From: Candidatus Latescibacterota bacterium
GTDB taxonomy: Bacteria; JAAXHH01
Length of the DNA stretch: 64,000 nucleotides
Assembly (NCBI GenBank): GCA_022821085.1
Contig: JAJEEG010000006.1
Location: forward strand, 1,695,330-1,759,329
Reading direction: 5' to 3'
The translations under genes were made by a program, and so were the position numbers. The notes below the pieces were generated by a model. The model made no database searches. It was not told the origin of the DNA and was given only the letters and a program-made list of their open reading frames with translations. Below are positions 8,965-12,113 of the stretch, piece by piece (positions within the stretch are counted from its first letter, which is position 1; each line of letters begins with the position of its first letter).

Positions 8965-9735
8965 ATGTCCATACTGGACGCATTCAAACTGGACGGCAAA
9001 ACCGCCCTCGTAACCGGCTGCCGCCGGGGGATCGGAAGGGGACTGGCCGAAGCGCTCGCCGAAGCAGGCGCCGATATCGTGGGCGTAAGCGCGTCGATGG
9101 AGTCATCCGGCAGCGAAATCGAAGGGGCCGTCGCGGCAATGGGCCGCCGGTTTACCGGTTACAGCGTCGACCTGAACGACCGGGACGCACTGTATGGTTT
9201 CATACACACGGTCAAGACCGATTTCCCGGTCATCGATATCCTCGTCAACAATGCAGGGCTAACGTTGCGGGCGCCCGCCGAGGAGCATTCCGACGAATAC
9301 TGGGACACGGTCATGAACGTGAACCTCAACGCGCCGTTCATCCTGAGCCGGGAAATCGGACGGGACATGGTCGCCCGTGGCCGCGGCAAGATCGTGTTCA
9401 CCGCTTCCGTACTGTCCTTCCAGGGCGGCATCACCGTGCCCAGTTACGCGGCGTCCAAGGGCGCCGTCGGGCAGCTGGTCATGGCGCTTTCCAACGAATG
9501 GGCCTCAAAAGGCGTCAACATCAACGCCATCGCGCCGGGCTATATCGCCACCGACCTCACGTCGGCCCTGCAGCATGATCCGGAGCGTTCCAGGTCCATA
9601 TCCGAACGTATCCCCGCCGGCCGGTGGGGTGCGCCGAGCGACCTGGGCGGCGCCGTCGTCTACCTCAGTTCGGACGCTTCCAACTACGTCCACGGTGCGA
9701 TCCTGGCCGTCGATGGGGGTTGGCTGGGCCGGTAG
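8965..9735 (+). CDS. kduD: 2-dehydro-3-deoxy-D-gluconate 5-dehydrogenase, KduD-like SDR
   Basis: A 256-residue classical short-chain dehydrogenase. The N-terminus (ILDAFKLDGKTALVTGCRRGIGRG) closely follows the KduD pattern. The cofactor motif TGxxxGIG is at 17-24, NNAG follows in the middle, and the catalytic pair is Y161/K165 (YAASK). KduD oxidises or reduces at C5 in 2-keto-3-deoxygluconate metabolism during uronate and pectin breakdown. No kduI or kdgK is adjacent, so the exact pathway is inferred; a related 3-oxoacyl-ACP or sugar dehydrogenase is the alternative. An AACGGAGA site precedes the ATG. It opens a plus-strand run with PhyH, CMD-family and TauD genes. Confidence 0.75.
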   Translation: MSILDAFKLDGKTALVTGCRRGIGRGLAEALAEAGADIVGVSASMESSGSEIEGAVAAMGRRFTGYSVDLNDRDALYGFIHTVKTDFPVIDILVNNAGLTLRAPAEEHSDEYWDTVMNVNLNAPFILSREIGRDMVARGRGKIVFTASVLSFQGGITVPSYAASKGAVGQLVMALSNEWASKGVNINAIAPGYIATDLTSALQHDPERSRSISERIPAGRWGAPSDLGGAVVYLSSDASNYVHGAILAVDGGWLGR

Positions 9736-9804: not shown

Positions 9805-10653
9805 ATGCGGTCGCCATATGCCCATTTGTTGACGGAAGAAGAGAAGTGGCATTTCGACCTGCGCGGCTACCTGCACCTGCGCGCCGTGATCGCGCCGAAC
9901 CGCCTGTCCCGCATCCTGGAAGTCGCCGATCGGTGGCTGACCGTCGACGAGTCCGAGGTCCCCGCGCCGGTGTTCAGGCACCGCCAGGAGCCGTACAAGA
10001 CGCACCTGGACCACATCCAGTACGGCCACCGGCTGTTCCAGGAACTGAACGCGGACCCGGAGATCATCCGCGTGGTCGCGGGGCTGACCATGGGCATGCC
10101 CCGGCTGTTTCACTGCAACTTCACCAAAATGGACCGGGCGGCGCCGGGCGACGATGATCACCAGGGCTACCACCGGGACGACAGCGGGTTCAAGTTCCCA
10201 CCGGGATTTCGCAACCCCCATAACGACTATCAGGCGGCGGGCGGCGAGATCTACTGCAGCCACCTGGCCACCTGGGTCGCGCTGGCCGACGTGCCCGAGG
10301 GGACGGGGTTCAGCCTGGTGCCCGGCAGCCACAAGTCGGCCTTCGCCACGCCCGATGGGCTGAAAGTCGGCCACCACCCGCCCGTATCCATCACCGTGCC
10401 CATGGACGCCGGCGATGTCCTCGTGTTTTCGACGCATGTGCTCCACGACGCCGCGGTCTGGACCCGGGACTATCCCAGGTTGAACATCTTCCAGCGCTAT
10501 CAACTCAGCGCCTACTTCAACGAGACCGGAAAAAGCGGGCTGCCCTTCGAGGACTACCGCGATCAGATAACCGAAGAGGAATACGAACTGGAGTCATTGA
10601 GCAAGGAAGAGAAAGCCGCAGTGACCCGGATGCGGCAACACTTCGATCTGTAA
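9805..10653 (+). CDS. Phytanoyl-CoA dioxygenase (PhyH) family Fe(II)/2-oxoglutarate oxygenase
   Basis: A 282-residue protein with a double-stranded beta-helix core. The metal-binding HxD is H123-R-D125 (GYHRDDSGF). The distal histidine is in HVLHDAAVW (H211 or H214), and the 2-oxoglutarate-binding arginine is probably in DYPRLNIFQRY. EGTGFSLVPGSHKSAF is the conserved PhyH loop. Bacterial PhyH proteins hydroxylate many small molecules, so phytanoyl-CoA is unlikely to be the substrate. It lies 19 bases upstream of the CMD-family gene and is probably co-transcribed with it. Confidence 0.85.
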   Translation: MRSPYAHLLTEEEKWHFDLRGYLHLRAVIAPNRLSRILEVADRWLTVDESEVPAPVFRHRQEPYKTHLDHIQYGHRLFQELNADPEIIRVVAGLTMGMPRLFHCNFTKMDRAAPGDDDHQGYHRDDSGFKFPPGFRNPHNDYQAAGGEIYCSHLATWVALADVPEGTGFSLVPGSHKSAFATPDGLKVGHHPPVSITVPMDAGDVLVFSTHVLHDAAVWTRDYPRLNIFQRYQLSAYFNETGKSGLPFEDYRDQITEEEYELESLSKEEKAAVTRMRQHFDL

Positions 10654-10672: not shown

Positions 10673-11236
10673 ATGGCGTGGATACGCACCATTGACGAAT
10701 CGGAAGCGGAAGGACCGCTGAAAAGGATATACGAGGGCTCGATGCGCTCGTGGGGCGGCGTAGACAACATCATCAAATCTCACAGCCTGAACGTCCAGGC
10801 ACTGCGGGCAGTGATGACTTTCTACAAGGGCCTCATGCACGGAGACTGCGACCTGACGCTGGGGCAGCGGGAGATGATCGCGACGACCGTTTCGGCCCTG
10901 AACGAGTGCGAGTACTGAATCCGCCATCATGGGGAGGGGCTCCTCAGAGAGATTAACGACCAGGAACTGGTGGACGCGATCAAGAAGGACTACCGCGAGG
11001 CGGATCTGGACGCCGCCGACCGCGCCATGCTGGACTACGTGCGCAAGCTGACCCTGGCGCCGGCTTCCACATCGGAGGCGGATATCATTGCGTTGAGGGA
11101 GGCCGGTTTCGTCGACAAAGCGATCCTGGAGATCAACCAGATCACGGGTTTCTTCGCCTGGTGCAACCGGACGGTGGACGGCCTGGGCGTGGAACTGGAA
11201 GCTTTCTGGGACGATCCGGACGCGACGAACATCTAG
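10673..11236 (+). CDS. AhpD/carboxymuconolactone decarboxylase-family peroxidase, candidate selenoprotein with in-frame TGA
   Basis: One reading frame of 188 codons runs from the ATG at 10673 to TAG at 11236, interrupted only by TGA at 10916-10918. The frame is unchanged across it. The text around it is N-E-C-E-Y-(TGA)-I-R-H-H-G-E-G. In peroxidase-related AhpD-like proteins this is the CxxCxxHH redox site, and TGA sits exactly at the second cysteine, next to the proton-relay histidines. Reading TGA as selenocysteine gives a normal-length protein (187 residues) with typical sequence on both sides (LGQREMIATTVSALN before, REINDQELVDAIKKDY after). A small hairpin follows (10934-10945, GAGG-GGCT-CCTC) whose loop starts with GG, as in bacterial SECIS elements, but its stem is short. 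A nonsense mutation or base error remains possible. An AGGGAGA site precedes the start. Confidence 0.65.
10934..10945 (+). promoter_or_regulatory. Possible bacterial SECIS-like hairpin
   Basis: Fifteen bases after the in-frame TGA there is a 4-bp stem, GAGG pairing with CCTC, enclosing the tetraloop GGCT. A weaker lower stem is possible between ATC (10926-10928) and GAT (10951-10953) across an unpaired internal loop. Known bacterial SECIS elements lie about 16-37 bases downstream of UGA and need a G-rich apical loop, which this fits. The stem is shorter than in well-studied examples, so this is only suggestive. Confidence 0.3.
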
Positions 11237-11306: not shown

Positions 11307-12113
11307 ATGATGGATTCGTTTGAAGTCATACCGACCGGCGGTGCGCTCGGCGCGGAAGTGCGTGGCCTGGATCTGCGCGAAGAACTGGGCGGGGAGACCG
11401 TACGTGTGCTGCGCGGCGCCTTTCTCGATCACTGCGTGCTGTTCTTTCGCGGGCAGGAGATCAGCCAGGAGGACCTGGTTAGGTTTACGCGGTATTTCGG
11501 CAAGCCGGTACCGCATGTTAGGCCGCAGCCGGACCGGCCGATCGATGAGATTTTCGTCATCTCGAACGTGACCGAGGACGGCCAACCCATCGGGGCCCTC
11601 GGCAGCGAGGAGATCCCCTTCCATTCGGACCTGTCCTACCTGCCGGAACCCGGTACGATTTCATTGCTGTACGCGCTGGAAATTCCGGAACGGGGCGGCG
11701 AGACGATGTGGGCCAACGGTTATGCGTCCTACGATGCGCTGGACCCCGGCACGAAGGCCCGGATCGACGGCCTGAGCGCAGTCCACCGCCATCCCATCGA
11801 CGCGCTGAATACGCCGGAGCCCACGATGCATCCGGTCGTCCGCACCCACCCGGAAACGGGACGCAAGGTGATCTATGTCAGTCCCCACCTGACGCATCAC
11901 ATCGCGGACATGGAACGGGAAGGCGGCAGGGCCCTGCTGGACGAGTTGATCGCCCATGCAACCGACGCACGGTTCGTATGGAAACACCGCTGGCAGGTCG
12001 GCGACCTGCTCATGTGGGACAACCGATGCACCATGCACCGCCGCACGCCCTTCGACGATCGGCAGCGCCGGTTCATGTGGCGCACGCAGGTATTCGGAGC
12101 GGGTACGAGATAG
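11307..12113 (+). CDS. TauD/TfdA-family Fe(II)/2-oxoglutarate dioxygenase
   Basis: A 268-residue protein with the TauD fold. The N-terminal GGALGAEVRGLDL and HCVLFFRGQ motifs are family hallmarks. Iron ligands are H106 and D108 (FHSDLSY) and H244 (CTMHRRTPF), and the 2-oxoglutarate arginine lies in DRQRRFMWRTQVFG. Family members hydroxylate taurine, chlorophenoxyacetates and many other acids and release sulfite or glyoxylate. The substrate cannot be assigned here. Two ATG codons in tandem open the frame after an AGAGG sequence. It follows the CMD-family gene by 70 bases and may share its transcript. Confidence 0.85.
   Translation: MMDSFEVIPTGGALGAEVRGLDLREELGGETVRVLRGAFLDHCVLFFRGQEISQEDLVRFTRYFGKPVPHVRPQPDRPIDEIFVISNVTEDGQPIGALGSEEIPFHSDLSYLPEPGTISLLYALEIPERGGETMWANGYASYDALDPGTKARIDGLSAVHRHPIDALNTPEPTMHPVVRTHPETGRKVIYVSPHLTHHIADMEREGGRALLDELIAHATDARFVWKHRWQVGDLLMWDNRCTMHRRTPFDDRQRRFMWRTQVFGAGTR

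Follow-up and report, generated by a model that had tools for sequence, protein, structure and literature searches.

A predicted AhpD-like (TIGR01926) selenoprotein gene, with a putative SECIS hairpin, in a genome of the phylum Latescibacterota

Within the window (the whole 64,000-nucleotide stretch of Latescibacterota DNA that was analysed), a reading frame interrupted by one TGA lies on the forward strand among genes for predicted oxidoreductases. The features of this region are as follows:

8965..9735, + strand: short-chain dehydrogenase (SDR); upstream neighbour in conserved synteny
9805..10653, + strand: phytanoyl-CoA dioxygenase (PhyH)-type gene; 19 bp separate it from the selenocysteine (Sec) gene downstream
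10673..11236, + strand: predicted AhpD-like or 'peroxidase-related' (TIGR01926, CMD) selenoprotein gene; 187 amino acids, with Sec as residue 82
10907..10909, + strand: TGC codon of Cys79, presumed resolving partner of U82; invariant in alignment A5
10916-10918, + strand: in-frame TGA, predicted Sec codon (U82); codon 82, second position of C-x-x-C
10930..10946, + strand: predicted bacterial SECIS hairpin of 17 nt; 7-bp stem (10930-10936 with 10940-10946) and GGG loop (10937-10939)
11307..12113, + strand: TauD/TfdA-type dioxygenase; downstream neighbour, synteny conserved in the genus

The gene begins with an ATG at 10673, a little downstream of a ribosome-binding-like GGGAG element, and ends with a TAG terminator at 11234-11236, the TGA being the sole interruption in its 187 codons. 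The initial annotation had described a single frame with one TGA, placed at the second cysteine of a CxxC redox motif, and both the coordinates and the placement proved exact: the read-through product reads VSALNECEY-U-IRHHGEGLL around U82, with the spacing C79-x-x-U82-x-x-x-H86. A standard annotation pipeline would probably split such a gene into two fragments. When codon usage was scanned across the window, no second TGA was found beside a redox motif and flanked by coding sequence on both sides.

The read-through protein matched the TIGR01926 model with 138.5 bits (curated cut-off 81.8 bits) over residues 2-173, corresponding to model positions 1-173 of 178, and matched the Pfam CMD model with 41.3 bits (cut-off 23), each match running across the TGA. 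TIGR00777 (AhpD, the AhpC reductase adaptor) was absent from its profile matches. The protein is likewise not a member of two families with related domains, the NF041238 AhpD-related (seleno)proteins, which carry the motif 'CFYU' and thus share the CxxU pattern, and the NF053654 YciW-related (seleno)proteins, for which it scored 43 and 31 bits against cut-offs of 175 and 310, respectively. An AlphaFold2 model, in which U82 was modelled as Cys, was all-helical with a mean pLDDT of 93, and showed a helix at residues 80-94 with C79 just ahead of it and residue 82 within its first turn; in the model, Sec82 would replace the second Cys of CxxC at the N-terminus of the active-site helix. The best PDB matches of the model were the AhpD-like structures 6k40, 3c1l, 2pfx, 2prr and 2oyo (TM 0.85-0.90, with 6k40 highest at 0.90). 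These proteins resemble the window protein in fold, length and catalytic residues at 28-35% identity, but have Cys where it has Sec.

A five-residue proton relay has been described for AhpD and PA0269, consisting of Glu, Cys, His/Tyr, Cys and His (PMC3141380). The corresponding residues of the window protein, E67, C79, Y81, U82 and H86, have the same spacing as in AhpD, and all five were invariant in alignment A5. The relay E-C-(H/Y)-C-H is found at identical spacing in the Mycobacterium tuberculosis AhpD (1gu9/1knc) and the Pseudomonas aeruginosa protein PA0269 (2o4d), but both have Cys rather than Sec, and the similarity is mostly confined to the core motif.

Full-length colinear orthologues were found in 12 further genomes among the 59 searched, with 72-94% identity to the window protein. 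Each contained exactly one TGA, at the identical codon in all orthologous loci, and final terminators were TAG, TAA or TGA. Relative to the window gene, dN/dS was 0.05-0.15 before the TGA and 0.07-0.30 after it, with some pairs synonymously saturated. Because dN/dS stays in the purifying range 3′ of the TGA, this region is translated and under selection. A pseudogene or a sequencing or assembly error, in which the TGA would be a nonsense mutation or a miscalled TGC/TGT in a dead or truncated gene, would look the same as a single internal stop in one gene of one genome, but it is scarcely credible here, since the recurrence of the same TGA in 13 genomes of one phylum at synonymous divergence up to saturation already refutes it, and the purifying selection beyond the TGA, the restriction of internal stops in above-cut-off family members to TGA and the complete Sec machinery (both described below) also speak against it. 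The initial annotation had named a miscalled TGC or TGT as grounds for abandoning the Sec assignment; a read error is excluded by the presence of this TGA in genomes that were assembled independently.

The host assembly (3.75 Mb in 7 contigs, 96% complete) contains the four Sec genes for which a search had been proposed, all above curated cut-offs. A tRNA-Sec with anticodon tca (UCA) scored 70.6 bits (cut-off 47), and the 3′ end of selB (347 bits, cut-off 242) lies ∼40 bp before it. On the same contig, selA (485 bits, cut-off 268) is located 17 kb away from this pair, and selD (250 bits, cut-off 125) is found elsewhere on that contig. The window itself gave no match in an Rfam scan and a tRNA search.

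A different account of the TGA is that it is read as Trp or Cys without selenium, through a change of the genetic code or near-cognate read-through. Such decoding would fit the alignment of the TGA with the Cys of homologues, but long reading frames end in TGA more often than in either other stop codon (23 of 42 frames within the window, 122 of 211 in a sampled 400-kb stretch of the genome), and therefore the code as such is unaltered, as had been claimed from the window. The lack of any other comparable in-frame TGA in the window and the presence of a UCA-anticodon tRNA-Sec together with the other Sec genes also count against it, and we regard this account as very unlikely. The same scan applied to the 400-kb sample revealed no convincing further Sec gene; this result is not a selenoproteome count because the sensitivity of the scan is limited. 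Elsewhere in the host genome, at G000:C6:55784-59113 (L018, L021), a SelD-like gene (340 aa) lies near a SelA-like gene (477 aa), and neither is the main selD or selA described above. They were considered as a second Sec machinery and set aside, both being under the family cut-offs. The reading of the TGA as Sec is supported by its presence in 12 further orthologues, by purifying selection beyond it and by the Sec machinery, and the gene at 10673-11236 almost certainly encodes a Sec-containing AhpD-like protein, in agreement with the initial proposal.

The predicted SECIS hairpin at 10930-10946 begins 11 nt past the UGA, with a UGA-to-loop distance of 18 nt, and falls within the bSECIS constraints printed in PMC13188914; the upper hairpin geometry in PMC8659212 is also 17 nt / 11 nt. 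Its fold value was about −7.6 for the 17 nt and about −9.1 with flanks included. Folding of the bases after the TGA had been suggested as a check, and its outcome was mixed: the single-sequence fold was unremarkable against shuffles (z of −0.1 to +1.1), whereas comparison among relatives supported a hairpin that fits the bSECIS model. The support for a SECIS element is thus comparative and does not come from the single-sequence fold. Across the 13 orthologues, 5 of the 7 codons 87-93 were synonymously invariant, compared with 15 of 99 conserved-residue codons elsewhere in the gene, so that the hairpin letters are nearly frozen while synonymous sites elsewhere are saturated. Synonymous recoding reached the observed hairpin energy with P of 0.03 for the window gene, which is modest alone, and 0.0025 for one paralogue.

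In two Sec subfamilies of the phylum, a hairpin with different letters occupies the equivalent position, shifted by one base, and Sec paralogues show UGGGGAG-GGG-CUCCUCA, ACGCAGA-GUU-UCUGCGU and ACGGAGA-GGA-UCUCCGU at the shared position. A compensated exchange of G-C to C-G, involving both sides of the stem, was present in 10 sequences; it probably represents one event because all 10 come from one subfamily. The covariation count uses a single register, in which the window subfamily is one base off and 3 of its 7 pairs are scored as unpaired; in its own register this subfamily has the full 7-bp stem. Among the Sec loci read from other phyla, a hairpin was found in 11 of 11, with the loop 16-24 nt past the UGA, and among Cys loci 5 of 7 had no hairpin and 2 of 7 had weak ones. 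Sec relatives in Oligoflexia and Planctomycetota MAGs (L065, L069, L072) have 24 nt to the loop and the loops CGGGCT or CGTGCC, a hairpin geometry that differs from that of the Latescibacterota genes.

Sec forms of TIGR01926 with a CxxU motif are already known and very common, and the window gene joins this known family. The statement in the initial annotation that AhpD-like selenoproteins had been described before agrees with the literature: PMC13188914 lists the selenoprotein family 'AhpD-like protein, TIGR01926, CxxU', citing earlier surveys, the marine GOS survey reported AhpD-like 1 and 2 with CxxU (PMC2398784), and the Sargasso Sea survey an AhpD-like protein (PMC1088965). The window protein shares with the CxxU AhpD-like selenoproteins the family, Sec at the second CxxC position, a bacterial SECIS within the coding sequence and the existence of Cys homologues, but differs in its lineage, the uncultured one of Latescibacterota-type MAGs, and in belonging to a phylum where all above-cut-off members found are of the Sec type and form several distinct subfamilies. 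What is added here is a near-certain Sec assignment in the host genome, a compact and comparatively backed SECIS, and phylum-wide use of Sec.

The distribution of Sec and Cys forms was quantified by running the TIGR01926 model against 384 genomes and counting only matches above the cut-off. Inside the phylum (16 genomes), 34 of 34 members had one TGA and none was without a stop; outside it, 24 had a TGA and 26 had no stop (24 of 50 Sec-type). Neither TAA nor TAG occurred at the internal position among the above-cut-off matches of the 384 genomes. Protein matches at E ≤ 1e-20 in the 16 genomes of the phylum likewise all contained one TGA. In Cys homologues from other phyla, TGC or TGT occupies the codon of the TGA; the initial annotation had proposed an alignment of homologues as a check on this point. 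Among named records, the closest belong to MAGs that carry the label Latescibacterota or, in other cases, Gemmatimonadetes/Gemmatimonadota, and the named relatives carrying the conserved TGA are MAGs throughout. Sec, not Cys, is therefore the rule for TIGR01926 across one phylum, and roughly half of the sampled above-cut-off members from outside it are Sec forms as well; given both results, to regard TIGR01926 as a family of Cys enzymes is to take a skewed view, and the 24 of 50 members with TGA outside the phylum suggest that current annotation may underestimate Sec forms. The matched Sec and Cys relatives provide a clean set for probing the contribution of Sec. Some genomes (G063, G076, G289) have several TGA-bearing TIGR01926 members each.

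We infer a scheme that extends from Sec insertion, through a peroxide substrate and a catalytic cycle, to the reductant. The short SECIS hairpin 11 nt past the UGA at 10916-10918 would recruit SelB with Sec-tRNA-Sec, and Sec would thereby be inserted at residue 82. By analogy with AhpD, U82 would be the residue that attacks peroxide, its selenolate becoming oxidised to a selenenic acid, which may then condense with Cys79 to form a selenenylsulfide. A cellular dithiol would re-reduce the U82-Cys79 selenenylsulfide and restore both residues, with Glu67, Tyr81 and His86 as the probable proton relay of this AhpD-like cycle. Peroxide is somewhat favoured as the main substrate of the Sec protein. 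The proposed peroxidase function is drawn from homology to weakly active proteins; PA0269, a characterised relative, is only a weak peroxidase.

The PhyH-type gene and the Sec gene are probably in one operon, and the order SDR-PhyH-Sec gene-TauD was kept at all genus loci examined. At two more distant orthologues (L038, L039), the SDR-PhyH-TauD neighbourhood was not retained. With the order kept in the genus but not in these orthologues, a shared pathway is no more than a possibility.

One proposal that builds on this neighbourhood is that the Sec-AhpD-like proteins of the phylum are dedicated enzymes associated with SDR, PhyH and TauD, for example a Bmp8-type selenolate-driven reductive dehalogenase, rather than general peroxidases. 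Such an enzyme would chemically resemble the Sec-containing thyroid deiodinases. The Bmp8 debrominase (6ohi/6ohj, the latter being the mutant C82A) has the same superfamily fold as the window protein and a profile match across the motif region, but it shares ∼20% identity with it, acts on another substrate and is a Cys enzyme. We consider this proposal improbable.

More generally, Sec may be inserted into an enzyme that is not mainly a peroxidase, acting instead as a thiol-disulfide adaptor, as AhpD does for AhpC, or on a product of the PhyH, SDR or TauD enzymes. Such a role would leave the Sec assignment intact, as only the function is at issue. It draws on the conserved neighbourhood in the genus and on the breadth of the CMD superfamily, which also comprises AhpD adaptors, sestrins and the reductive debrominase Bmp8; on the other side, the closest relatives with solved structures bear antioxidant or peroxidase-related names, and the neighbourhood is not kept in the two more distant orthologues. 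A main role other than peroxide reduction is thus tenable, if rather doubtful, and we retain peroxidase activity as the tentatively preferred function of the predicted Sec protein.

The same genome contains a second, divergent TIGR01926 protein (L051, G000:C5:97452-97901), which also has a TGA at the CxxU position. The hairpin that follows this TGA has a different sequence and lies at the same distance from it, and L051 is conserved across the genus.
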